Virus record (IMG/VR): IMGVR_UViG_3300009183_000409
Coordinates: 1 to 21,870 of that record
From: a virus
Length of the DNA stretch: 21,870 bases
Reading direction: 5' to 3' (one strand)
A program made the translations under genes and the position numbers. The notes below the pieces were generated by a model. The model did no database searches and had not been told where the DNA came from. It was given only the letters and a program-made list of their open reading frames with translations. This document shows, one piece after another, positions 2,998 to 15,412 of the stretch (positions are counted from its first letter, which is position 1; every line of letters starts with the position of its first letter).

Positions 2998-5676
2998 ATG
3001 GCAAACTTTTGGGATAAAGATGTACCAGTAGCCCAAAGTAATTTTTGGGAAAAAGATATTCCTCAATCCGCTAATTTTTGGGAAAAGGATATTCCTTCAA
3101 AGAATATTGATTTTAGTATTCCTACGCCTGAAGCTATGCGTACAAGTTCTGTTTCTCCTACTCAAGAACCTTCTGCATTAAGTCAACTTACTTATGGTGC
3201 TGCTGAAGTGCCTACAGCTATTGCAGGTACTATTGTAGGTGGATTAGGTGGCGTTGTAAATAGAGTATTGCGTGGTACTGCATCGTTAGATAACACTGGT
3301 TTTGAAGAGGGTGCACAATATGTAGCTCCTGTTACAGCACCACAAACTGAAGCTGGTAGAGCAGCATTGGAAAATTTTGGTGAGTTTAGTGATAGATATT
3401 TAACTCCTTTAAGTGGAATGGGAGAGCTTGGTGCATTAGCTAGACTAAGACCTGTATCAGGTATGCCATCAACATTTAGAGCATCTGAACTTCCTGTTGT
3501 TGGAAAAACTTTAGAAAAAGCTGGTCAAGTAGCAGAATCTGTTACTGCTCCTATTGTAGAAAATATTAAAGGTGCATTCCAAAAATCTCCTGAAGCTAAA
3601 ACAAAACAGTATAATCAAGTTATAGATAACTATGAATTAGAAGCTGCTGATGCTATGTCTAAAGGTATGGCAATTGATGATATCAAACCATTTGTATTAT
3701 CTAAACTAGGAATTCCAGAGCAAAGACTAACTCAAGCTACTAATTATTTAAAAAGAAATGTTGAGATTCCTGCAACTATGGAGGAAGCAAATTTAGTTTC
3801 TAGAATTAAAGCTGCTGGAGAATATAAAGACCCATCTGTTATGTCAAAAGTATTGCAACCTATTCAGAGTAGATTACAACAAATTGCAGAACCTGTTGCA
3901 AATAGATTAGGTAAATATGAATTTAATTTGCATACTAATACAGCAAAATATATAGATGAAGCTACTCCATTTTTAACATCATTAAATAGATTAGATAAAC
4001 CAGTTGCAGAAAAAATATCTTTAGATTTATATAATGGTAAATTTGATAATGTACGATCTACTTTGCAACAAACAGACCCTGCATTAATAAATTCATTTAA
4101 TAAAACAGAAGCTGTTTTAAAAGACATATATCAACAACTTGTAGATTCTGGATATAAAGACTTAGCTAAAATTGAAAATTATTTTCCTAGAAGAATTAAA
4201 GATTTAGATGGCTTATACAAAGAATTAGGCGTTCCTGCTAAAGGTAAAATTGAAACATTGCTTAATGATAAAGCAAATAAACTTAATGTATCTAGGTCTG
4301 AATTAACTGATGAGCAAGTAGCTGATGCTGTAAATAAATACCTTCGTGGTTATGGTCAAAAAACTTCATCTGGAAAACCATATTTTACAAAGTCTAGAAA
4401 CATAGACCAAGTAGACCCTAGAATTTTACCATACTATGATAATCCAGCAACTAGTTTTCAAAACTATGTGCGTTCAGCAGTTAATAATATAGAGAAAAAT
4501 AAATTCTTTGGCAAGAGTGCTGTAGTAGATGCAGGTCAAAAACTTAATATTGATTCATCTATAGGTAATTTTATAGCTCAAGATATTGGAGGAACTTCTC
4601 CAGCAGCAGATGAAATAAGTTCTTTATTAAAAGCTAGATTTACATTGGGAGAACAATCCCCTAATGCAATTGTTAAAGCTGCTAAAAATATTATGTATAG
4701 TTCTACAATTGCAAACTTTAAATCTTCTGTATCACAGATAGCTGACTTAGGTATGAGTGCATTTGTTAATGGTAACAGAAATAGTATTGCTGCAATGCTT
4801 AAAAGTAAAGAAGTTACTATGCACGATTTAGGTTTGGCTGAAGCATCTGCTGAACTTAGCACTGCAGAAGGAACTTCAAAAGCACTTAATAGTCTTCTTA
4901 CAATATCTCAATTTAAAAGAATTGATAAATTAGGAAAAGAAACATTTATTAATGCAGCATTATCTAAAGCCAGAAAAATGTCACAAAGTGAAACTGGTAC
5001 TAACGCATTAAAAAATAGATATGGCAAAGTATTTGGAGAAGAGTTTAATTCTTTTGCTAATGATTTAAAATCTGGCAAAATTACTGACAATGTTAAATAT
5101 TATTTGTTTAATGAGTTGGCAGAAGTTCAACCAATTAACCTTTCTCAAATGCCTAAAATGTATTTAGAAAATCCTAATGGTAGAGTTTTATATGCACTTA
5201 AATCATTTACCATTAAGCAATTAGATGTAATGAAAAAACATATTTATGACCAATATAAAGCAGGTAATAAAGGTCGTGCTGTTAAAAATGCTGCAGCTTA
5301 TGTAGCATTAATTGGTGGTGCTAATACATCAGCAGACCAACTTAAAAAAATAATGGAAGGTAAAGAAATAAATGTAGATGACCTTCCTCAAGAATTTGCA
5401 TTTAATGTACTTAAATTATTTGGTGGTTCTAAATTTTTGTATGATAAATATTTACAACAAGGCAAATTTGGTGAAGCTGCAATTAGAACAATAGCTCCTC
5501 CATTAGATGTACTAACAGCACCTGTAGAAGACGCAATAGGTTACCTATCAGGCAAAGAAAATTACCAATATAAAACTCCTAAAAAATTACCATTAGTTGG
5601 GTGGGCTATATATAATTTCTGGGGTGGTGGTTTAGAAAAATATAATACAGAACAACAAAATAAATTATATAAATAA
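2998..5676 (+). CDS. Large internal virion/ejection-like protein with N-terminal NFWxKDxP repeats
   Basis: At 892 residues this is the largest protein in the window. It opens with three copies of N-F-W-(D/E)-K-D-(V/I)-P at residues 3-10, 15-22 and 26-33. Short W-x-K-D motifs of this kind occur near the N-terminus of large virion-carried phage proteins. A small-residue segment (about 65-95) could meet a membrane, and the rest is mostly charged helices. I see no lysozyme or transglycosylase active site, so an enzymatic role cannot be claimed. Length and position, last before the lysis genes, match internal core or ejection proteins of podoviruses. The ribosome site is weak, so translation may be coupled to the gene three bases upstream. 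Confidence 0.75.
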   Translation: MANFWDKDVPVAQSNFWEKDIPQSANFWEKDIPSKNIDFSIPTPEAMRTSSVSPTQEPSALSQLTYGAAEVPTAIAGTIVGGLGGVVNRVLRGTASLDNTGFEEGAQYVAPVTAPQTEAGRAALENFGEFSDRYLTPLSGMGELGALARLRPVSGMPSTFRASELPVVGKTLEKAGQVAESVTAPIVENIKGAFQKSPEAKTKQYNQVIDNYELEAADAMSKGMAIDDIKPFVLSKLGIPEQRLTQATNYLKRNVEIPATMEEANLVSRIKAAGEYKDPSVMSKVLQPIQSRLQQIAEPVANRLGKYEFNLHTNTAKYIDEATPFLTSLNRLDKPVAEKISLDLYNGKFDNVRSTLQQTDPALINSFNKTEAVLKDIYQQLVDSGYKDLAKIENYFPRRIKDLDGLYKELGVPAKGKIETLLNDKANKLNVSRSELTDEQVADAVNKYLRGYGQKTSSGKPYFTKSRNIDQVDPRILPYYDNPATSFQNYVRSAVNNIEKNKFFGKSAVVDAGQKLNIDSSIGNFIAQDIGGTSPAADEISSLLKARFTLGEQSPNAIVKAAKNIMYSSTIANFKSSVSQIADLGMSAFVNGNRNSIAAMLKSKEVTMHDLGLAEASAELSTAEGTSKALNSLLTISQFKRIDKLGKETFINAALSKARKMSQSETGTNALKNRYGKVFGEEFNSFANDLKSGKITDNVKYYLFNELAEVQPINLSQMPKMYLENPNGRVLYALKSFTIKQLDVMKKHIYDQYKAGNKGRAVKNAAAYVALIGGANTSADQLKKIMEGKEINVDDLPQEFAFNVLKLFGGSKFLYDKYLQQGKFGEAAIRTIAPPLDVLTAPVEDAIGYLSGKENYQYKTPKKLPLVGWAIYNFWGGGLEKYNTEQQNKLYK

Positions 5677-8126: not shown

Positions 8127-8864
8127 ATGAAAATCTTACTTATTGATATTGAAGTAGCACCAAATACTGCTCATGTCTGGGGTATCTTTGACCAGAACAT
8201 CTCTATAAATCAATTATTAGAATCATCCTATACTCTCTGTTATGCAGCCAAGTGGTATGGTGAATCTAAAATCATGTTTGACTCTATTCAAAAATCTGGT
8301 AAGCAAAAGATGCTAGACTCTGTGCATAAACTTCTTGATGAAGCTGATGCTATAGTCCACTACAACGGCTCTAGGTTTGACATACCGATACTACACAAAG
8401 AGTTTTTACTCTCTGGTATGCCTCCTCCAGCACCCTCTAAACAGATAGATTTACTTCAAGTAGCTCGTAGACAGTTTAGGTTTGTATCTAACAAACTAGA
8501 CTATGTATCACAGGCTTTAGGTCTTGGTGCTAAAACAGCACATGAAGGTCATGCACTATGGTTAAAGTGTATGAATGATGACCGTAAAGCATGGAAGACA
8601 ATGGAAGAGTATAATAAAAATGATGTTATATTACTTGAGAAAGTCTATGACAAATTTAAAGGATGGATTAAACAACATCCAAATCATAATGCGTATTCCG
8701 CAAATGTATGTTGCCCTAATTGTGCATCACGCAAATTAAATTCAAGAGGTACGCAAAGAAGTAGAACTGCTATATATCAAAGATTCCAATGTCAAGATTG
8801 TGGCTCGTGGGCAAGGTCTGTTAAGTCAGAAAAGATTGCTAAAGATTCTGTAGTAACTATTTAA
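8127..8864 (+). CDS. DEDD-type 3'-5' exonuclease with C-terminal zinc ribbon
   Basis: The protein has 245 residues. Motif I is D-I-E (D7, E9), motif II is Y-N-G-S-R-F-D-I-P-I-L (D85) and motif III is Y-N-K-N-D (Y162, D166). These are the four acidic residues and tyrosine of the DEDDy branch of RNase H-like nucleases, close to the YprB group. A C-P-N-C (196-199) and C-Q-D-C (222-225) pair forms a zinc ribbon after the catalytic domain. It probably trims DNA or RNA ends during replication or repair. Its place after the lysis genes, away from the replication block, is slightly unusual. Confidence 0.85.
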   Translation: MKILLIDIEVAPNTAHVWGIFDQNISINQLLESSYTLCYAAKWYGESKIMFDSIQKSGKQKMLDSVHKLLDEADAIVHYNGSRFDIPILHKEFLLSGMPPPAPSKQIDLLQVARRQFRFVSNKLDYVSQALGLGAKTAHEGHALWLKCMNDDRKAWKTMEEYNKNDVILLEKVYDKFKGWIKQHPNHNAYSANVCCPNCASRKLNSRGTQRSRTAIYQRFQCQDCGSWARSVKSEKIAKDSVVTI

Positions 8865-8872
8865 GGAACATC

Positions 8873-9040
8873 ATGAACATTGAAAAATTATGTGAACACA
8901 TTGTAGGAAAAATGATTGTAGAGGCAGAAGCCTACTACGGAGAAGATGTTCTCGTAATTATACTAGATGACGGAAGTCACATCGAGATTACTGGTGATGG
9001 ACTATCCGTCTATGCAGAAGTTCCAGAACTAGACGACTAA
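8873..9040 (+). CDS. Hypothetical 55-residue acidic protein
   Basis: The start has an AAGGA ribosome site (TTTAAGGAACATC-ATG) directly after the exonuclease stop. The protein is acidic, with an N-terminal helix (E-K-L-C-E-H-I-V-G-K-M) and strand-like segments (V-L-V-I-I-L-D-D-G-S, I-E-I-T-G-D-G). It is the last plus-strand gene of the lysis/accessory block. Its stop overlaps the stop of the opposing gene by four bases. The family is not recognised. Confidence 0.65.
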   Translation: MNIEKLCEHIVGKMIVEAEAYYGEDVLVIILDDGSHIEITGDGLSVYAEVPELDD

Positions 9041-9189
9041 GAACAAATCACTACGTTCTTTTGAACAGTACAAATTGTTGTAGTACCGTCTGGACTAACA
9101 ATAATAGTAGTATCTGCTAGTGCTTTTTCTGTTCCCCATACAGCTAATGCAGCCATTACCACAATAAATATCAAATAGATTTTATTCAT
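9037..9189 (-). CDS. 50-residue secreted peptide with two cysteines
   Basis: This minus-strand frame starts at ATG 9189, overlapping the end of the DUF3310 gene. It encodes a clear signal peptide: N-K, a hydrophobic core (I-Y-L-I-F-I-V-V-M-A-A-L-A-V), then a cleavage-like A-L-A before D-T-T. The mature peptide is only about 25 residues and ends in a C-T-V-Q-K-N-V-V-I-C hairpin whose two cysteines could pair. It would be periplasmic. Function is unknown; superinfection exclusion or envelope modification are possibilities. Confidence 0.6.
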   Translation of the reverse strand: MNKIYLIFIVVMAALAVWGTEKALADTTIIVSPDGTTTICTVQKNVVICS

Positions 9190-9457
9190 CATCTACTCTG
9201 CCTAGCATGGCTTCTAGTGCTGGTGGATTAATAGCAATTTCATCCTTTAGTATTTCTAATAACTTATCTTTATACCATTCAGACTTTTCAAGGTCTTGTT
9301 CAAATGAATTTTTAAATGGATAGCGTAAGTCATATTTCATCTTACATCCTTTTAAATACCCAACAAACTCTTCCTTTGTTAAACGACTAGCAATAACATC
9401 TATTGCTTCTATACCGCCTTGTAAATAGTGCGGTGGTCTATTAACCATATCAACCAT
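9182..9457 (-). CDS. DUF3310 (SaV-like) protein
   Basis: The protein has 91 residues. It begins near V-N-R-P-P-H-Y-L-Q-G-G-I-E-A-I-D-V-I, then E-F-V-G-Y-L-K-G-C-K-M-K-Y-D-L-R-Y and E-K-S-E-W-Y-K-D-K-L. This order (P-x-H-Y ... E-x-I-D ... G-x-x-x-K-Y-x-x-R ... A/S-x-W-Y) is the hallmark of DUF3310, a common phage family sometimes annotated as nucleotide kinase-like. The true activity is unclear because it has no P-loop. The start has an AAGGGGG ribosome site. Confidence 0.85.
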   Translation of the reverse strand: MVDMVNRPPHYLQGGIEAIDVIASRLTKEEFVGYLKGCKMKYDLRYPFKNSFEQDLEKSEWYKDKLLEILKDEIAINPPALEAMLGRVDDE

Positions 9458-9459
9458 AA

Positions 9460-9576
9460 CTACCCCCTTATAAACATTAAATTAATAACTTGAAATATAC
9501 CATAAATAAATGCAGCAATACTAACTAATATTAACAACCATACAATCCAGTCAATAAGTTTTAATACCCTATCCAT
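9460..9576 (-). CDS. 38-residue single-TM micropeptide
   Basis: It starts at ATG 9576 inside the 3' end of the upstream minus-strand gene and stops at TAG, two bases before the DUF3310 start. After a short charged N-terminus (M-D-R-V-L-K), residues about 8-33 form one membrane span (I-V-W-L-L-I-L-V-S-I-A-A-F-I) and the end is basic. It fills the gap exactly, which supports its being real. The role is unknown. Confidence 0.55.
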   Translation of the reverse strand: MDRVLKLIDWIVWLLILVSIAAFIYGIFQVINLMFIRG

Positions 9577-9812
9577 CTGCCTTCTTCCCTTCCTACTCTT
9601 ACAGAAATGTAATTCCTAGGTTTTCTTTTGCTTACTATATCTTGTATTGTTATTTTTGGCAAGACTAAATAACCATCACTTTGTAACCCTCTTAATCTTT
9701 TTTTGCTAGTCTTAAAAACCCTCATCAATTCTTTAATAGAGCATTTACTATTTAATGCCATATATTCATTCATTACTTTAGAATCTTTTTGGTCATCTAA
9801 TTTTGTGTACAT
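9561..9812 (-). CDS. Small basic protein with possible helix-turn-helix
   Basis: The protein has 83 residues, and its start overlaps the stop of the glycosyltransferase as TAATG. The middle (about 24-50) reads like a helix-turn-helix: S-I-K-E-L-M-R-V-F-K-T-S-K-K-R-L-R-G-L. The C-terminus is basic (S-K-R-K-P-R-N, G-R-E-E-G-R). A DNA-binding role is possible but I cannot assign a family. Confidence 0.6.
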   Translation of the reverse strand: MYTKLDDQKDSKVMNEYMALNSKCSIKELMRVFKTSKKRLRGLQSDGYLVLPKITIQDIVSKRKPRNYISVRVGREEGRWIGY

Positions 9813-10543
9813 TATACAAGTCTTCCACTATACTGATAAGTTCCTGTATGGACTAACTGTGCCCATGCTGCACCCCATACTTTAATGCCATTGTCCCTAG
9901 CTAGTTTACAGAAATGATAATCCTCTGACAATAACTTCTTATCTTCATCAATGCTAGTAGCAAAGTACTCTACTATCTCATCACCTAAATCAGAATTGTT
10001 AGTGGTATCATTCATGTTATGGATGTATTTAGGGCACTTGTCTTTAAGTTTATCAAATACTTCACGCTTAATTACCATGAATCCTGTTCCACCATATTTA
10101 ATCTCAAAAGGTTTGTCTAAAGGTACAAGCTCTTCTTTAACATTACCTAACATATTAACTACATACTGACCAGTAAAGTATTTTAATTGGTTTTCTGGTA
10201 CATTCTTTTTAATAGCAAATGCTAATGAACCAAAGTTAATTTCTTTTTTAGGGTAAAGACCACATATAATTTCTACATCAGAATCAATCATCTTAAATAA
10301 ATGTTCTGGGTCAAAGTGTATATCAGCATCAATGAATATCATATGCGTACAATCAGACTTTAAAAAATCATTGACTAATGTATTGCGACCACGAGTAATA
10401 AGGCTTTCATTATATAGAAAGGAAAAGTAAGCATTTATGTTCTTAACAGTTAAATGTGATTGAAGGTTTAGTATAGACTCCATGTAAGTGCCATAACATA
10501 ACCCACCATACATTGGGGTTGCTATAAATAAATTATGCTTCAT
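9812..10543 (-). CDS. GT-A fold glycosyltransferase
   Basis: The protein has 243 residues. An N-terminal strand with I-A-T-P-M-Y-G-G is followed by R-G-R-N-T-L-V-N-D-F-L (51-61). Then comes H-M-I-F-I-D-A-D-I-H-F (67-77), where D72-A-D74 is the DxD metal/nucleotide-sugar motif. This series is common in phage GT2-like enzymes. The C-terminal part (L-L-S-E-D-Y-H-F-C-K-L-A-R-D-N-G) contains the E-D-x-x-F-C acceptor-side motif of the family. Substrate is unknown; it could modify phage DNA, virion proteins or host surface sugars. A GGAG site lies six bases before ATG. Confidence 0.85.
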   Translation of the reverse strand: MKHNLFIATPMYGGLCYGTYMESILNLQSHLTVKNINAYFSFLYNESLITRGRNTLVNDFLKSDCTHMIFIDADIHFDPEHLFKMIDSDVEIICGLYPKKEINFGSLAFAIKKNVPENQLKYFTGQYVVNMLGNVKEELVPLDKPFEIKYGGTGFMVIKREVFDKLKDKCPKYIHNMNDTTNNSDLGDEIVEYFATSIDEDKKLLSEDYHFCKLARDNGIKVWGAAWAQLVHTGTYQYSGRLV

Positions 10544-10679
10544 GTTTTACTCCATGTAATTGTTCGATAATTCTTGCAAACTGTATCATTCTATTTATTG
10601 TCATTGGCTCATATCTTGTTGGAAATGCTTGACTATATGCACCAATTATTTGTTCTTGTGTGAGTGGTTTATAATCCAC
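10533..10679 (-). CDS. 48-residue protein with GTG start
   Basis: The frame begins at GTG 10679 inside the last codons of the upstream gene. A strong GGAGG lies six bases before this GTG, which is why I accept it over ATG starts. The product (D-Y-K-P-L-T-Q-E-Q-I-I-G-A-Y ... N-R-M-I-Q-F-A-R-I-I-E) is helical and soluble. It overlaps the glycosyltransferase start by eleven bases. Similar short proteins occur in aquatic phages, but I know no function. Confidence 0.65.
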   Translation of the reverse strand: MDYKPLTQEQIIGAYSQAFPTRYEPMTINRMIQFARIIEQLHGVKHEA

Positions 10680-10899
10680 TGTTAGCCTCCGTTAATTTTT
10701 TACTGTCATACTTCTTTGCATTAGTTACTTTAACAATGTTTTGCGTATCTGGTATCAAAGGCGTTATTGTTACATTATGCAGTTTAGATTTAAGGTCTTT
10801 AAACCAAGACATTTCTTTGGGTTCAGATGACATAAGACCAGACCATACAAGTACACCTGTGCTATCAAACTCTTCTACAAGCCATGCTATAGGTTTCAT
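10669..10899 (-). CDS. Hypothetical 76-residue protein
   Basis: The start overlaps the SleB-like stop as TAATG. The N-terminus has strand-like segments (P-I-A-W-L-V-E-E-F, G-V-L-V-W-S-G), then a short amphipathic stretch (S-W-F-K-D-L-K-S-K-L) and a basic end. There is no known motif. Confidence 0.65.
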   Translation of the reverse strand: MKPIAWLVEEFDSTGVLVWSGLMSSEPKEMSWFKDLKSKLHNVTITPLIPDTQNIVKVTNAKKYDSKKLTEANSGL

Positions 10900-11297
10900 T
10901 AATAAAATACCATCCTTCCTATGTGCGTTTTTTTCCTTTTACCGAACCATGTTTTCTTTGGCGGTATCGAGTCATCATGGAAATATAAAGCATTTGCAAC
11001 TGGGTTAGTATGTTTATTAAAAACAACCGTATCAATAACCAATAGTTTAGTCTCCAAATACGCCCTTTCATCAACTGGATGGTGGGTTTCGTCTTGCACA
11101 GCAAACTGATTATTAGCATAAACGACAGAGCATACAGAGTAACCCCAACGACCACTATGCAACCTATTACGAATAACATTAATCACCCCAACCTTTTCTT
11201 CTAATGAACGAGTATTCACCTCATGATACACCGCAGTGGCATAACATGCAATATCTAACTCCATATTATTAATGTCCATTTGGTTGATAAAACTCAT
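10899..11297 (-). CDS. SleB-like cell wall hydrolase
   Basis: The protein has 132 residues. C-Y-A-T-A-V-Y-H-E-V-N-T-R-S (18-31) matches the 'E-A-R-x-E' opening of the hydrolase_2/SleB family, with E26 as likely catalytic acid. It continues with G-V-I-N-V-I-R-N-R-L (37-46), N-Q-F (63-65), A-L-Y-F-H (103-107) and a final H-I-G-R-M-V-F-Y. The family cuts glycan strands as a lytic transglycosylase. There is no signal peptide. The N-terminal start is uncertain: ATGs at 11297 and 11279 are both possible and neither has a good ribosome site. It overlaps the upstream gene. Being on the minus strand, far from the holins, it is a second wall-cutting enzyme in this phage. Confidence 0.85.
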   Translation of the reverse strand: MSFINQMDINNMELDIACYATAVYHEVNTRSLEEKVGVINVIRNRLHSGRWGYSVCSVVYANNQFAVQDETHHPVDERAYLETKLLVIDTVVFNKHTNPVANALYFHDDSIPPKKTWFGKRKKTHIGRMVFY

Positions 11298-11631
11298 GGA
11301 CTAAAGGAAGTATATTTTCTGCACCTAATTTGTCAATAATCATGTCTCTTATATTGTGCTTACTAATTCCTGCTAACTCACAACATAAATCATAAACATC
11401 ATTATCATCAAACAACCACTCTATAGCGTCTATCTTATCTTTTGCACCAGCTTTATTTTTAGACTTAAGACTATTTACTGAACATTCTGTTGCATTTGTT
11501 TTAACTTTTTTAGGTGAATATAAAGCATCTTCTATAGCTTGATATAGCATAGCTAATAACAGCTTAGATTCAGGTAATCCAGATAGTTCACTTTTATCAT
11601 CAAAATCTATTACATCTTTACTTGTGTCCAT
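11269..11631 (-). CDS. Hypothetical 120-residue phage protein
   Basis: It has a good GGAG ribosome site six bases before ATG 11631 and is the first gene of the minus-strand block running to 9037. An acidic N-terminus leads to a helix (E-S-K-L-L-L-A-M-L-Y-Q-A-I-E-D-A-L-Y), a lysine/serine-rich loop, and a second helical part beginning A-I-E-W-L-F-D-D-N-D. Proteins with this A-I-x-W-L-F pattern are found in many phages, but no function is known to me. Confidence 0.65.
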   Translation of the reverse strand: MDTSKDVIDFDDKSELSGLPESKLLLAMLYQAIEDALYSPKKVKTNATECSVNSLKSKNKAGAKDKIDAIEWLFDDNDVYDLCCELAGISKHNIRDMIIDKLGAENILPLVHEFYQPNGH

Positions 11632-11747
11632 AATGTCTCCGTATTTTCATTAGGTCAATATAAATGTTTATTAGTTGCTTTTGTGTTGCAAAAACAGGAT
11701 AATTTGCTAGACAAACAATTTTGTATGTCATAAACAAGGAGCAAACT
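11632..11747. other. Divergent intergenic region between pqqA and the minus-strand block
   Basis: This is 116 bases with no gene. It holds the candidate pqqA promoter and ribosome site on the plus strand. For the minus-strand gene starting at 11631 I find a ribosome site but no convincing -35/-10 pair, so that block may depend on a phage activator or on read-through. Confidence 0.5.
11675..11703 (+). promoter_or_regulatory. Candidate sigma70 promoter for pqqA
   Basis: A GATAAT -10 (11698-11703, five of six matches to TATAAT) lies 17 bases after TTGCTT (11675-11680, three of six). Transcription would start near 11710, about 38 bases before the pqqA start. The -35 is weak, so this is a moderate call. 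Confidence 0.5.
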
Positions 11748-11819
11748 ATGTGGACAACACCATCAGCAACTGAAATGCGTTTTGGCTTTGAAGTAACTAT
11801 GTACGTTATGAATAAATAG
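11748..11819 (+). CDS. pqqA: PqqA, precursor peptide of pyrroloquinoline quinone
   Basis: This 23-codon gene encodes a peptide beginning M-W-T-T-P and containing R-F-G-F-E-V-T-M-Y. In PqqA the PqqE enzyme links a Glu and a Tyr in an E-x-x-x-Y motif to build the PQQ backbone. Here they are E15 and Y19, inside the conserved G-(F/L)-E-V-T-(M/L)-Y core. The length and both positions equal those of the well-known Klebsiella PqqA, which also starts M-W and ends N-(R/K). A perfect AAGGAG lies six bases before ATG and an intrinsic terminator follows. No pqqB-E gene is present, so host enzymes would have to process it. It is surrounded by minus-strand phage genes, as in a moron. Such a short match could in principle be chance, but the motif, length, ribosome site and terminator together make this unlikely. 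Confidence 0.9.
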   Translation: MWTTPSATEMRFGFEVTMYVMNK

Positions 11820-11834
11820 CTCTAAAACGAACAG

Positions 11835-11857
11835 AAAGGGGTGTTAAACCCCTTTTT
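11835..11857 (+). terminator. Intrinsic terminator after pqqA
   Basis: AAAGGGG (11835-11841) pairs with CCCCTTT (11849-11855) around a seven-base loop, and the T-tract runs 11853-11857. It lies 15 bases after the pqqA stop. In the opposite direction the hairpin is followed by CTGTTC, not a T-tract, so it is weaker for the minus-strand operon that ends at 11861. Confidence 0.8.
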
Positions 11858-11860
11858 GTA

Positions 11861-12097
11861 TTAGAAAGGTACATCTTCATCTACTTCAACTGCTTTAGGC
11901 TTCACATCACCATCTTTTAGCTGAACAGTACCGCTAATAAACTTACCACTTTTACCCTCACGAATCCATCCTGCGATTCTAAACTCAATACCATCTACAT
12001 TTGCCAATCCAGTATAGTTTGGTTTTTTAGGGTTATCACCTTGCTCATTTTTAAATAACGTAAACGTATTTGTATTATCATACTTTTGCTCTGCCAT
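11861..12097 (-). CDS. Small protein with SSB-like acidic tail
   Basis: The protein has 78 residues, with AAGGAG before an ATG that overlaps the upstream stop as TAATG. The core reads N-T-F-T-L-F-K-N-E ... Y-T-G-L-A-N-V-D-G-I-E-F-R-I-A-G-W-I-R-E-G-K-S-G-K-F-I-S-G, strand-rich like a small OB fold. The end E-D-V-P-F copies the D-D-x-P-F tip that SSB proteins use to recruit partners. In a recombination operon with an exonuclease and ERF protein, a single-strand-binding or accessory role is reasonable but unproven. Last gene of the operon. Confidence 0.65.
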   Translation of the reverse strand: MAEQKYDNTNTFTLFKNEQGDNPKKPNYTGLANVDGIEFRIAGWIREGKSGKFISGTVQLKDGDVKPKAVEVDEDVPF

Positions 12098-12300
12098 TAT
12101 TTTCTCCTTAACATTACTTGTTTAACTACTGAACCTCTAAATAAATCTGGACTTTCTGAAATAACCTTATCAACTACATCATCTAATTTATCTAGATAAC
12201 TATTTTGTTCCCTAAGTTTTAACTCTACAAAGCGGTCAGCACTTATTCCACTGTAACATGCTTTAATTCTTTGTTGTTGATCTTGCGTTAAAAAGTTCAT
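12097..12300 (-). CDS. Hypothetical 67-residue recombination-block protein
   Basis: It starts at ATG 12300, coupled by ATGA to the YqaJ exonuclease gene. It is helical and polar, with Q-D-Q-Q-Q-R-I-K-A-C and S-Y-L-D-K-L-D-D-V-V-D-K-V, and a basic end (M-L-R-R-K) whose codons also carry the ribosome site of the next gene. No known family. Confidence 0.62.
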   Translation of the reverse strand: MNFLTQDQQQRIKACYSGISADRFVELKLREQNSYLDKLDDVVDKVISESPDLFRGSVVKQVMLRRK

Positions 12301-12899
12301 TTTATCTCCTTCAATTTATTAATTACATCATCCACTTCTCCTAAGAATTGCTTTACTTCTGACTCTAATTCTTTTTGATATGCTGTATCTGCTTCTACAC
12401 GCTTCACGAATATTTGAAGATGTTGTGGAAACATTGGGTTATAACTTACAAAATCACACCACTTACGATTTGTACATAAAAGCTGAAACTGTATCTGTGG
12501 TATATATCTACTAGGTACATCTTGAGTCATCAGTGTTTCTGTATGTGTACTTCCCATTGGGCATTTAATTTCAAGAATACCATCATCTCCTACCATGCCA
12601 TCTGGACTAGCACCAGCTTCTAAGGTAGGATGTTTTACAAACCCTACCTCTTCCACTTCCCCAAATTGCTGAACATATCTATCCCTAGCAAATATTTCTC
12701 TATCTATACCATCTTGCATAGCTTGGTTAATATAAGATTCTTGTTTTTCTCCAGTCAATCGTTCACTGACTAACTGAATTTTGTAGTTACGTCTAGACGC
12801 AGATTCACCACTCTTAATCTTTGCTAGTACATCAGCCACACGACTAGCTGTAACCTTTCCTAGTCGTGCTTGAAACCACTCTTCCGAACGCTGTTCCAT
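12297..12899 (-). CDS. YqaJ-type viral recombinase exonuclease
   Basis: The protein has 200 residues, standard for the YqaJ/lambda-exonuclease family. R-S-E-E-W-F-Q-A-R-L-G-K-V-T-A-S (4-19) is the opening motif. G-A-S-P-D-G-M-V (96-103) carries D100, and L-E-I-K-C-P (109-114) gives the E-x-K of the PD-(D/E)xK site. It would chew 5' ends of double-stranded DNA to leave a 3' strand for the annealing protein encoded just upstream, whose stop overlaps this start. Confidence 0.92.
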   Translation of the reverse strand: MEQRSEEWFQARLGKVTASRVADVLAKIKSGESASRRNYKIQLVSERLTGEKQESYINQAMQDGIDREIFARDRYVQQFGEVEEVGFVKHPTLEAGASPDGMVGDDGILEIKCPMGSTHTETLMTQDVPSRYIPQIQFQLLCTNRKWCDFVSYNPMFPQHLQIFVKRVEADTAYQKELESEVKQFLGEVDDVINKLKEIK

Positions 12900-13318
12900 T
12901 AGATAAAGTCCTCTGCTTTTGTATCTTTCATTTTAATCACAGCACCTGCACTAGAGTCAATGGCATCATGCTCTACAATTTCAAAAGCATTAGTCCATAA
13001 ATATCTACGCAAGTAAGTTTGAACTGCACCTAAGTTTTGTACTTCATGGCAACCTTTTAAAGCTGCTGAAGACATAGGACATTTAAACTCAATGAATTGT
13101 GTAGCATCATTCATATCTGTAATAGTTAAAACTGCAATGTCTGTATAAAAAGTTACTGTGCCACAGATACCCACCTCATTACAAATCTCTTGAATAGTAG
13201 GTAAGAAATCACCTAACTCAAAATACTTGTATCCTGCAAATTTATTGTGACCAGACTTTTTAAGGTCTGCTACTTGTAACTTAAGTCTAGCTTGCATTAA
13301 CTTACTGTGTATGCTCAT
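12899..13318 (-). CDS. ERF-family single-strand annealing protein
   Basis: I place the start at ATG 13318, which has a strong AAGGAG eight bases upstream. A longer frame upstream overlaps another gene and is glutamine-rich junk-like sequence. The product has 139 residues. K-L-M-Q-A-R-L-K-L-Q-V-A-D-L-K-K-S-G-H, K-F-A-G-Y-K-Y-F-E-L-G-D-F-L-P and A-V-Q-T-Y-L-R-R-Y are the ERF signature (N-K-x-x-x-Y-x-Y ... L-x-Y-x-x-R-Y-x-L). It anneals single strands made by the YqaJ exonuclease. Length is on the short side for ERF, which often carries an extra tail. Confidence 0.88.
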   Translation of the reverse strand: MSIHSKLMQARLKLQVADLKKSGHNKFAGYKYFELGDFLPTIQEICNEVGICGTVTFYTDIAVLTITDMNDATQFIEFKCPMSSAALKGCHEVQNLGAVQTYLRRYLWTNAFEIVEHDAIDSSAGAVIKMKDTKAEDFI

Positions 13319-13466
13319 CTTGCTCTCCTTTTGATGTTGTTGCATCATCACCTGATCGTAATGTTGTTGTTGGCTCATTTGCTTTCTCCCACTTGTCATT
13401 GTCTAACTTTAACTCTTCGTTTAATTCTTTTAATATTTGTGCTATATGTTCTAAACCATTCGCCAT
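13302..13466 (-). CDS. 54-residue acidic protein before ERF
   Basis: From ATG 13466 the protein has an N-terminal helix (L-E-H-I-A-Q-I-L-K-E-L-N-E-E-L-K) and a polar T/G/E/D-rich tail. An upstream GTG at 13550 would add 28 residues, but an AGGA abuts that GTG without spacing. The GGGGG eight bases before 13466 is a better though modest ribosome site. It overlaps ERF by 17 bases. Function is unknown. Confidence 0.55.
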   Translation of the reverse strand: MANGLEHIAQILKELNEELKLDNDKWEKANEPTTTLRSGDDATTSKGEQDEHTQ

Positions 13467-13540
13467 ATAAAATACCCCCAAAATATTACTAAAAACCATG
13501 CTACCACATAGTAGAACTTTTGTGTAAACTTTTTTTGCAA
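13451..13540 (-). CDS. 29-residue TM micropeptide with TTG start
   Basis: A TTG at 13540 lies about eight bases after AGGAG and opens a frame encoding a basic N-terminus (Q-K-K-F-T-Q-K) and one aromatic membrane span (V-V-A-W-F-L-V-I-F-W-G-Y-F-I-W), ending R-M-V. Its stop overlaps the start of the next gene. This frame competes with the GTG-extended version of that gene on the same bases. The clean topology and good spacing favour this one. It would be the first gene behind the leftward promoter. Confidence 0.48.
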   Translation of the reverse strand: MQKKFTQKFYYVVAWFLVIFWGYFIWRMV

Positions 13541-13568
13541 TTGTTTTCACTCCTAAATTTGAAAGAAC

Positions 13569-13597
13569 ACTATACTCTTAGTCATTACAATTGTCAA
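13569..13597 (-). promoter_or_regulatory. Strong leftward early promoter
   Basis: Reading the minus strand, TTGACA (13592-13597, full consensus) is followed after exactly 17 bases by TATAGT (13569-13574, five of six). Start would be near 13562, a few bases upstream of the micropeptide ribosome site. An eight-base palindrome ACAATTGT (13587-13594) overlaps the -35 edge and could be an operator half. Confidence 0.85.
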
Positions 13598-13641
13598 TAA
13601 GTATTTAAATAGGGGTGGTATTTATCCTGCATTTATAATTG

Positions 13642-13670
13642 TTGACAAGATTTGCATTAGGTGTTATAGT
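13642..13670 (+). promoter_or_regulatory. Strong rightward early promoter
   Basis: TTGACA (13642-13647) and TATAGT (13665-13670) are separated by 17 bases, the same hexamers and spacing as the leftward promoter opposite. Start would be near 13677, about 22 bases before the Cro-like gene, which has AAGGAG. This is a P_R-like arrangement. Confidence 0.88.
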
Positions 13671-13698
13671 CGCTTTTCATTTCAATAAGGAGATTTAA

Positions 13699-13887
13699 AT
13701 GAACTTTACAGAGGCGGTATCACACTTTAATAATTCAAGACGTAAGATGGCATATGCTTTAGATATATCTATTCAAGCTATTCAGTATTGGGCTAAAGAC
13801 CCAGCAAAAGAAATTCCTAGGAAACGTGCAGAACAAATTGAAGAACTTTTAATTAAACGTAGACAAGCTGAAACTATTCCAGAATAG
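13699..13887 (+). CDS. Cro-like transcriptional repressor
   Basis: The protein has 62 residues. A helix-turn-helix at about 14-31 (R-R-K-M-A-Y-A-L-D-I-S-I-Q-A-I-Q-Y-W) is followed by I-P-R-K-R-A-E-Q-I-E-E-L, the ordinary continuation of phage Cro and YdaS-type proteins. It is the first gene of the rightward operon, directly behind one of the two mirrored promoters, so it probably binds in between and regulates both. No CI-like partner gene is visible on the other side. Confidence 0.85.
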   Translation: MNFTEAVSHFNNSRRKMAYALDISIQAIQYWAKDPAKEIPRKRAEQIEELLIKRRQAETIPE

Positions 13888-13895
13888 GAGACAAT

Positions 13896-14492
13896 ATGAT
13901 GCCGAGAAATTGGAAGAAATTCCAGCACTATAACAATAGATGTCCTCCTTGGATTAAGGTTCACAATGACCTGTTAAAAAATCCAGATTGGTTTGCATTA
14001 AAAGATAGTAAAAGCACTTGGGTTTTAATAAATATTTGGTTGATTGCATCAGAAGATGTTGATGGAAATTTACCAGATAGCAGAACGCTAGCATTTCGCT
14101 TGCAAATGTCAGAAGATGAATTGAAAAAACATTTATCTGTATTAAATCAATGGCTTATTGAGAATGATAGCATCATGCTAGCATCATGCAAGCAAAGTGG
14201 GGTTACAGAGACAGAGACAGAGAGAGAGACAGATATATCGTTGTCTAGATTTAATGACTTTTGGAAAGAATATCCTGCTAATAGAAAAGTAGGTAGGAAG
14301 CCTTGTGAAACTAAATGGCAAAGACAGGGGTTAGATAAGATTGCAGATAAGATTATTAATCATGTTAAAACTATGAAACAAAGTAAGTCATGGAAGGAAG
14401 GATTTAATCCTGCACCATTAACTTATATTAACCAAGAGAGATGGGAAGATGATAATGCACCTAAACGAAATGTATGGGATAACGCAATATGA
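13896..14492 (+). CDS. Replication initiator/helicase-loader-like protein
   Basis: The protein has 198 residues. The N-terminal half (about 18-90) is a winged-helix replisome-organiser type domain: W-I-K-V-H-N-D-L-L, W-V-L-I-N-I-W-L-I-A, then L-P-D-S-R-T-L-A-F-R-L. A short T-E-T-E-R-E-T linker (104-112) leads to a C-terminal domain with F-N-D-F-W-K-E-Y-P, K-P-C-E-T-K-W and P-A-P-L-T-Y-I-N-Q-E-R-W, found in phage O-like and DnaT-like proteins. It probably opens the origin and loads the helicase encoded next. Repeats inside the gene may be the origin itself. Confidence 0.82.
   Translation: MMPRNWKKFQHYNNRCPPWIKVHNDLLKNPDWFALKDSKSTWVLINIWLIASEDVDGNLPDSRTLAFRLQMSEDELKKHLSVLNQWLIENDSIMLASCKQSGVTETETERETDISLSRFNDFWKEYPANRKVGRKPCETKWQRQGLDKIADKIINHVKTMKQSKSWKEGFNPAPLTYINQERWEDDNAPKRNVWDNAI
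14168..14234 (+). repeat. Internal tandem repeat and purine-rich tract, candidate origin
   Basis: Two adjacent copies of TAGCATCATGC occupy 14168-14178 and 14179-14189. They are followed by a stretch of repeated ACAGAG/AGAG units at 14205-14234 in which one strand is almost all purine. Lambda carries its origin iterons inside gene O at the equivalent linker position, and the encoded linker here is likewise low complexity. Function is inferred. Confidence 0.5.
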
Positions 14493-15412
14493 ACCTAGGT
14501 GATGCTATGGAGTCACTAACAGTTAGTCAGTCTGTAATTACTGATTACTATAAACAAAAGGAATATGCTCATGCAGAATTTAAAGTTAAAGATACGTCTG
14601 TATTTACTGACGATGTCTTGCGATATTTTAATACTGAAATACATAGCGGTAAAACATTGGGCTTCATTAAAACGGAAGATTCGTTTAGGGTAAGACCTAG
14701 CGAGCTGACTGTGTTGACGGGCGTATCAGGGCATGGCAAGAGTCTCTGGTTGTCACAGGTTATATTGTCGCTTATGGCACAAGGAACAAAGTGTTTATTA
14801 TCAAGCCTCGAGATGCGTCCAGTGTTATCTATCGCACGAATGGTGACGCAGACGTTAGGCTCACCAGAACCTACAGATGAATTCATAACAAAATTTTGTG
14901 AACGTGCAAAGGATAAGTTATATATTTATGACCAGATGGGTTCAACATCTAGTGAAGACATGATAGCAACGTTGTATTGGGGTAAGCATGTTTTAGGTGT
15001 AGAAGTATTTGTGATTGACTCACTCATGAAAATGTCAGATATTTCTGAAGACAATTACGAGAAGCAAAAGTTGTTTATAGATAGGCTTGCTGTTACTTGC
15101 AGAGATTTAGAAATTCATGTATTCTTAGTAGCACATACAAGAAAGATGTCAGATGAATCGGAAGTGCCAGATGCTACTCACATTTTAGGTTCAAGTCATA
15201 TTCGAAACTTAACAGATAACGTGATATGTGTGTGGAGGAATAGAAACAAAGAACGTGAAGTAGAGAACAACGAGAAGACAGAAGAAGAGTTAAAGAAGAT
15301 ACCAGATGCTATGGTCTTCGTACAGAAGCAACGTAACTACCAATTTGAAGGCAAGTTTTCATTTTGGTTTGACCCTAAAGGATTAAAATATAAGGAGAGT
15401 CCGTCAAGATGA
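14489..15412 (+). CDS. DnaB-like (SF4) replicative helicase, no primase domain
   Basis: The protein has 307 residues. Walker A is G-V-S-G-H-G-K-S (78-85). A catalytic glutamate lies in S-S-L-E-M-R-P (105-111). Walker B is E-V-F-V-I-D-S-L (172-179). Motif H3 includes F-L-V-A-H-T-R-K. The late G-S-S-H-I-R-N-L-T-D-N-V and arginine-rich tail are DnaB-family features. It lacks the N-terminal domain of DnaB and any primase part, so it resembles the RecA core of phage helicases. It is coupled by ATGA to the loader-like gene. Confidence 0.88.
   Translation: MNLGDAMESLTVSQSVITDYYKQKEYAHAEFKVKDTSVFTDDVLRYFNTEIHSGKTLGFIKTEDSFRVRPSELTVLTGVSGHGKSLWLSQVILSLMAQGTKCLLSSLEMRPVLSIARMVTQTLGSPEPTDEFITKFCERAKDKLYIYDQMGSTSSEDMIATLYWGKHVLGVEVFVIDSLMKMSDISEDNYEKQKLFIDRLAVTCRDLEIHVFLVAHTRKMSDESEVPDATHILGSSHIRNLTDNVICVWRNRNKEREVENNEKTEEELKKIPDAMVFVQKQRNYQFEGKFSFWFDPKGLKYKESPSR

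Follow-up and report, generated by a model that had tools for sequence, protein, structure and literature searches.

A host-type solo pqqA unit with a predicted operator in phages of methylotrophic Methylophilaceae

We found that a virus record of 21,870 bases and 34% G+C (IMG/VR record IMGVR_UViG_3300009183_000409), analysed over its whole length and hereafter called the window, encodes PqqA, the 23-residue precursor peptide of PQQ, and that the same gene is spread over unrelated phages of methylotrophic bacteria (methylophages). PQQ is built from a Glu and a Tyr of PqqA, and one peptide is consumed for every PQQ. In the window, pqqA is a host-type metabolic gene that forms its own transcription unit inside a phage genome. 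We propose that it is a phage copy of the solo pqqA unit of Methylophilaceae, which would supply the consumed PQQ precursor during infection, and taken as a whole we judge this account to be probable.

A selected pqqA gene in the window

The window peptide MWTTPSATEMRFGFEVTMYVMNK (Table 1) matched the PqqA profile PF08042 with 41.3 bits and an E-value of 1.4e-10 over 19/19 profile positions (cut-off 21.1), and the NCBIfam equivalog TIGR02107 with 38.5 bits (cut-off 20), both scores being nearly double the respective cut-offs. The peptide has the Glu-x-x-x-Tyr pair, Glu15 and Tyr19, as a sequence-only reading of this DNA had claimed for a 23-codon PqqA frame. The alignment to Methylophilaceae proteins that this reading had called for revealed that a PqqA of the methylotroph HTCC2181 is identical to it in 100% of residues, and the best 80 genome matches were all Methylophilaceae-type PqqA, most of them from genomes named as that family or its genera. 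No PHROG family was returned for the peptide, which fits PqqA being overlooked in phages.

Table 1 Features of the pqqA unit and its neighbours in the window.
Feature	Position	Strand	Remarks
Divergent neighbour, 120 aa, no family	11269-11631	-	Pfam and PHROG scans
Dyad operator CTCCGTATTTTCATTAG (predicted)	11637-11653	+	Fits host PQQ-regulon motif CTMATGA-N3-TCATKAG
-10 element GATAAT	11698-11703	+	53 nt from operator centre, as in most host pqqA promoters
Shine-Dalgarno AAGGAG	11736-11741	+	6 nt ahead of pqqA ATG; from sequence
pqqA, 23-aa PQQ precursor peptide MWTTPSATEMRFGFEVTMYVMNK	11748-11819	+	ATG start, TAG stop
Intrinsic terminator hairpin and T-run, probably bidirectional	11831-11859		-19.4 kcal/mol, z -5.1
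Convergent neighbour, single-strand DNA-binding protein (ssb)	11861-12097	-	PHROG 18154

Relatives were sampled through the YqaJ nuclease encoded next to pqqA in the window (60-100% identity), so that the sampling did not depend on PqqA. This yielded 80 loci, of which 77 reach far enough to assess pqqA, and in 77/77 the gene is located downstream of yqaJ and in the opposite orientation; loss of the Glu/Tyr pair or of the frame in close relatives, which the sequence-only reading had named as a refutation, was not seen in any of them. The 41 distinct pqqA coding sequences of this lineage have a pS of 0.40 and a pN of 0.041 (pN/pS 0.10), and Glu15 and Tyr19 are invariant in all 41, as is the pair in all 113 distinct viral PqqA sequences. 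The low pN/pS and the unchanging residues indicate that the frame is translated and that selection maintains it as a PQQ precursor. A chance open reading frame is excluded by the E-values, the conservation among relatives and the codon-level selection, and it is close to certain that this is a genuine, selected phage pqqA.

These data also bear on the idea that the unit is a passive host remnant, the core of an attachment site or host DNA in viral bins, with no function for the phage. The unit does resemble that of the host, and att sites can consist of short stretches of host origin; however, cultured phages carry pqqA (see below), the window relatives all retain it, and no integrase was recognised among those window proteins that were scanned, which are part of the set. 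Moreover, viral and host pqqA coding sequences have only 3/71 nucleotide versions in common, with high synonymous divergence and few amino-acid changes. We therefore consider such a remnant highly improbable, and contamination of viral bins with host DNA is ruled out by the cultured phages and the differing synonymous sites.

The Shine-Dalgarno sequence, the upstream -10 element and the terminator following the frame, all described in the sequence-only reading, were located, and pqqA indeed lies on the plus strand between minus-strand genes (Table 1). The start of the unit had been placed at 11675 and needs to be revised, since the regulatory region begins further upstream at about 11637, where, in the window lineage, the left half of a dyad overlaps the Shine-Dalgarno sequence of the divergent neighbour. 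The convergent ssb is the last gene of an ERF-YqaJ-ssb recombination operon (YqaJ and ERF by Pfam). As the hairpin is terminator-like on the minus strand too, it is probably common to pqqA and this operon. The unit had been called independent and likened to an acquired moron. It is a transcription unit of its own that supplies only the precursor, but it carries a host-type operator; and while it has its own promoter and terminator, it is an old, fixed part of the window lineage and not a recent acquisition.

The Manatee Spring relative of the window is a circular genome of 41 kb. Of the part of the window searched, 9,000-14,500, it covers three quarters with 74.5% identity, and the window is therefore probably a fragment. 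The window gave no Rfam match, no tRNA and no long repeat. At 8127-8864 it encodes a protein in which an exonuclease domain of the RNase_H_2/PolB type is combined with a zinc-ribbon-like C-terminal region resembling IS1595/InsA.

Distribution among phages and viral contigs

A tblastn search with the 23 PqqA residues against 50,697 phage records in GenBank identified ten genuine phages with pqqA. Nine are isolates of OM43/LD28 methylotrophs (P19250A, Venkman, MEP301, MEP401, MEP402 and four Melnitz records), which represent six species from several unrelated phage groups, and the tenth is the Manatee Spring relative. Every cultured OM43/LD28 phage examined encodes pqqA, and carriers include one Zobellviridae phage and one Kyanoviridae myophage. 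No annotation exists for the gene in P19250A, Venkman, MEP301, MEP401 and MEP402, and wrong-strand hypothetical genes overlap it in Melnitz and the Manatee phage; the expectation that gene finders miss such short genes thus held for nearly all phage copies. Likewise, pqqA goes unmentioned in the papers that describe Venkman, MEP301, MEP401/402 and Melnitz, the last of which names PQQ solely as a medium supplement.

Beyond the nine isolate records, the search for the frame in related phages and metagenomes, also suggested at the outset, recovered at least 587 IMG/VR contigs that encode PqqA relatives. As many as 11 gene neighbourhoods were distinguished among viral pqqA loci, although some singletons may be short contigs, and a clear terminator follows 32 of 129 viral copies under a strict rule. 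Among five viral contigs with an HTCC2181-like XoxF, three (L515, L517 and L518) encode pqqA on the same locus, and in L518 its start lies about 200 bases past xoxF. This agrees with the methanol dehydrogenase and PqqA found in methylophages of Lake Baikal (PMC7678222).

A Methylobacterium-type PqqA query returned nothing beyond Melnitz from the GenBank phages. Two weak matches to Acinetobacter 'phages' were rejected. The one that was opened, CAKLQF020000010.1 (named Acinetobacter phage MD-2021a), is a bacterial contig that encodes an entire bacterial pqq operon next to ppk and resembles chromosomal DNA; CAKLQH020000055.1, which bears the same name, gave the same match. Alphaproteobacterial-type PqqA (MKWSAPIVQEVCVGMEVTSYDSAEIDTFN and similar) was observed on three viral contigs, L522 (265,895 bases; around 4436-4462 on the minus strand), L524 (around 2748) and L523 (around 417), with no pqqB-like sequence on any of these loci. 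Large phages of other methylotrophs may hence carry solo pqqA too.

Other phage groups differ from the window lineage. The site ahead of gp154 in Melnitz-like myophages is empty or is occupied by tRNA-Leu only, by pqqA only or by both, and MEP401-like phages have pqqA at the matching site in 3/12 relatives. Judging from the comparison of these sites, pqqA is a gene that behaves as a gain/loss cassette in both groups. The region ahead of the gp5-like gene in Melnitz-like myophages (L007 3900-4240; L291-L304) is a hot spot for small genes with these same four states, and some close Melnitz relatives (L291) have no pqqA at that site.

A predicted operator common to host and phage pqqA

Expectation-maximisation on 77 non-redundant host pqqA upstream regions recovered the motif tTCATGAattTCATTAGg, usually 105-130 nt ahead of the ATG. 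One half is the reverse complement of the other (correlation 0.90, reached in 0/2000 permutations), forming the 17-bp dyad CTMATGA-N3-TCATKAG. One locus labelled as host (L097) was omitted from the training; it groups with phage loci by gene content and thus probably represents a phage contig that was assigned to a MAG. A simple pattern search with 3 mismatches proved too loose to be useful, and a weight matrix was used instead.

When the model was retrained without HTCC2181 and run over the whole 1.30-Mb genome of this strain, exactly four intergenic sites reached the threshold of 11 bits (contig positions 753854, 1046131, 235656 and 350059). These sites precede a tandem pqqA pair, pqqBCDE and a third pqqA, and lie in the gap between xoxF and the adjacent solute-binding-protein gene, which we take to be xoxJ by its position. 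Sites within long HTCC2181 open reading frames also occur, at about the Markov-null rate. The site before pqqB is identical in three genomes and the one in the xoxF-xoxJ gap recurs across OM43 genomes, whose xoxF upstream regions had no strong dyad, the site being downstream of this gene. As the intergenic HTCC2181 sites are confined to pqqA, pqqBCDE and xoxF-xoxJ, we predict that the dyad is a PQQ/methanol operator. The distance from dyad centre to -10 element is 53 nt in 36/71 and 54 nt in 10/71 host promoters (46/71 together), a position that would be typical of an upstream activator. We found no description of the dyad in the literature searched, which covered subscription journals only to a small extent.

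With models trained solely on host pqqA upstream regions, the window dyad scored 17.4-17.8 bits. It is the top site of the window, its score was reached in 0/300 shuffles, and its centre lies exactly 53 nt from GATAAT, the most frequent host spacing. Upstream of pqqA in other phages, host-trained scores were 18.1 bits in Melnitz, 17.5 in Manatee, 17.0 in Venkman, 14.4 in P19250A and 12.8 in MEP301, and the model detected no dyad upstream of MEP401 pqqA. Overall, 38/66 non-redundant viral pqqA upstream regions have a dyad of at least 12 bits compared to 0/619 upstream regions of other genes on the same contigs, a control from which divergent genes sharing the operator were excluded. Viral spacings between dyad and -10 element have one mode at 30 nt and another at 53 nt. 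The operator of Melnitz-like phages starts at the cassette edge and is absent from empty sites, which indicates that operator and pqqA came together. The upstream region is wholly replaced in five distinct window-lineage sequences (L209, L224, L228, L256 and L265), which makes the operator a frequent feature of viral pqqA but not a universal one.

A strong and widespread operator that would multiply with phage DNA could also act as a decoy, its copies titrating the host PQQ/methanol regulator with the peptide as a passenger. However, the pqqA coding sequence is under strong codon-level purifying selection, and the peptide is retained where the operator is missing, in MEP401 and in the five sequences of the window lineage. 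We therefore regard a decoy as very unlikely.

Proposed role during infection

Eight Methylophilaceae genomes contain between 1 and 12 pqqA genes each. Hosts without pqqB-E had been suggested as evidence against the proposed role; PqqB, PqqC and PqqE were found in 6/8 of these genomes, a set that may not include the host of the window, and the two without full detection are one MAG and one single-cell genome. A solo pqqA is the native arrangement, since none of the pqqA genes of HTCC2181 and Ca. Methylopumilus adjoins pqqBCDE. Methylophilaceae have multiple pqqA copies (3-12) and usually one set of the other pqq genes (PMC4109929), as expected if the PqqA peptide is the consumable, which strengthens the stoichiometric argument for precursor supply made in the sequence-only reading. 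At the same time, the need for one more copy is not obvious since hosts already have several. A MAG of OM43 type (FRAM18_bin317, locus L098) encodes pqqA and a split xoxF frame, with no confident PqqB, PqqC or PqqE; this genome is possibly incomplete or dependent on outside PQQ.

We propose that a phage of Methylophilaceae captured a complete single-gene host unit consisting of operator, -10 element, Shine-Dalgarno sequence, pqqA and terminator. During infection, the predicted host PQQ/methanol regulator and RNA polymerase would read this unit, with the operator as a putative activator site, and host PqqE/PqqD would cross-link the phage peptide at Glu15-Tyr19. An overexpressed precursor might in principle compete for its modifying enzyme, and the phage peptide could conversely be a competitive inhibitor that occupies PqqD/PqqE and stops PQQ synthesis. 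Phage peptides, however, have retained every reactive residue and in many cases match host PqqA exactly, so that they would be substrates, and inhibition appears scarcely credible. Under the supply model, host PqqB/C and proteases would convert the cross-linked peptide to PQQ. Because one PqqA is used per PQQ, the extra gene would keep PQQ supplied, and we infer a benefit from raised PQQ that would keep the XoxF/Mxa methanol dehydrogenase active as expression of host genes falls over a long latent period. This period is 17-20 h in MEP401/402 (PMC10580990). The published medium for OM43 includes 1 nM PQQ (PMC9004378), an amount that could hide an effect of the phage gene in culture.

The precursor might instead serve another purpose, as a source of a redox protectant, of cofactor for another quinoprotein or of a further modified peptide. 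PQQ has other uses, and the hosts encode several PQQ-dependent dehydrogenase-like proteins, but the dyads are concentrated around xoxF and pqqBCDE, and pqqA is also present on viral contigs with xoxF. This makes a different purpose unlikely, if less so than the other alternatives. Methylophage pqqA, as far as genome comparison can tell, suggests that these viruses keep the energy supply of the host running while they multiply. We lean slightly towards the further view that methylophages of unrelated families separately captured the whole host-regulated pqqA unit and thereby plug into the host PQQ/methanol regulon. If true, supply of the precursor peptide would be a general infection bottleneck in these abundant plankton bacteria. 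Two questions become testable, namely phage support of methanol oxidation during infection, with its bearing on marine and freshwater carbon flux, and the regulation of PQQ and methanol genes in Methylophilaceae. In addition, pqqA is a practical marker to recognise methylophages in metagenomes.

Comparison with known systems

PqqA has been reported in the Lake Baikal methylophage population VP_266, with a proposed support of methanol dehydrogenase (Coutinho et al. 2020, PMC7678222), and pqqA is listed among the genes of reservoir-sediment viruses (PMC13188868). VP_266 is likewise a virus of methylotrophs, but it is one population and was reported together with a viral methanol dehydrogenase, whereas the unit described here is precursor-only, has a host-type operator and occurs in lineages that include all cultured methylophages examined. 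Viral pqqA was therefore known before, while its breadth, the solo unit and the operator appear to be new.

A close counterpart is the solo pqqA of HTCC2181, Ca. Methylopumilus and Methylotenera, which has the same peptide, operator, -10 element, Shine-Dalgarno sequence and terminator, and is likewise apart from pqqBCDE. In contrast to this host unit, the phage copy is virus-borne, differs at synonymous sites, is mostly unannotated and sometimes has a shorter spacing between operator and -10 element (mode 30 nt). With its predicted operator, it is a clear case of phages retaining a host cis-regulatory element.

Like phage morons, the unit has its own promoter and terminator and an orientation unrelated to that of its neighbours. 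However, it is old and invariant in the window lineage, and is a recent gain/loss cassette of the moron kind only in the Melnitz-like group. Cyanophage psbA is an auxiliary metabolic gene, a host gene kept by phages, and pqqA resembles it as a host gene that would sustain host energy metabolism in infection. Unlike psbA, phage pqqA encodes a consumed 23-aa peptide and no enzyme or catalytic subunit, and comes with a predicted host operator; it would thus be an auxiliary gene that delivers a substrate instead of an enzyme.
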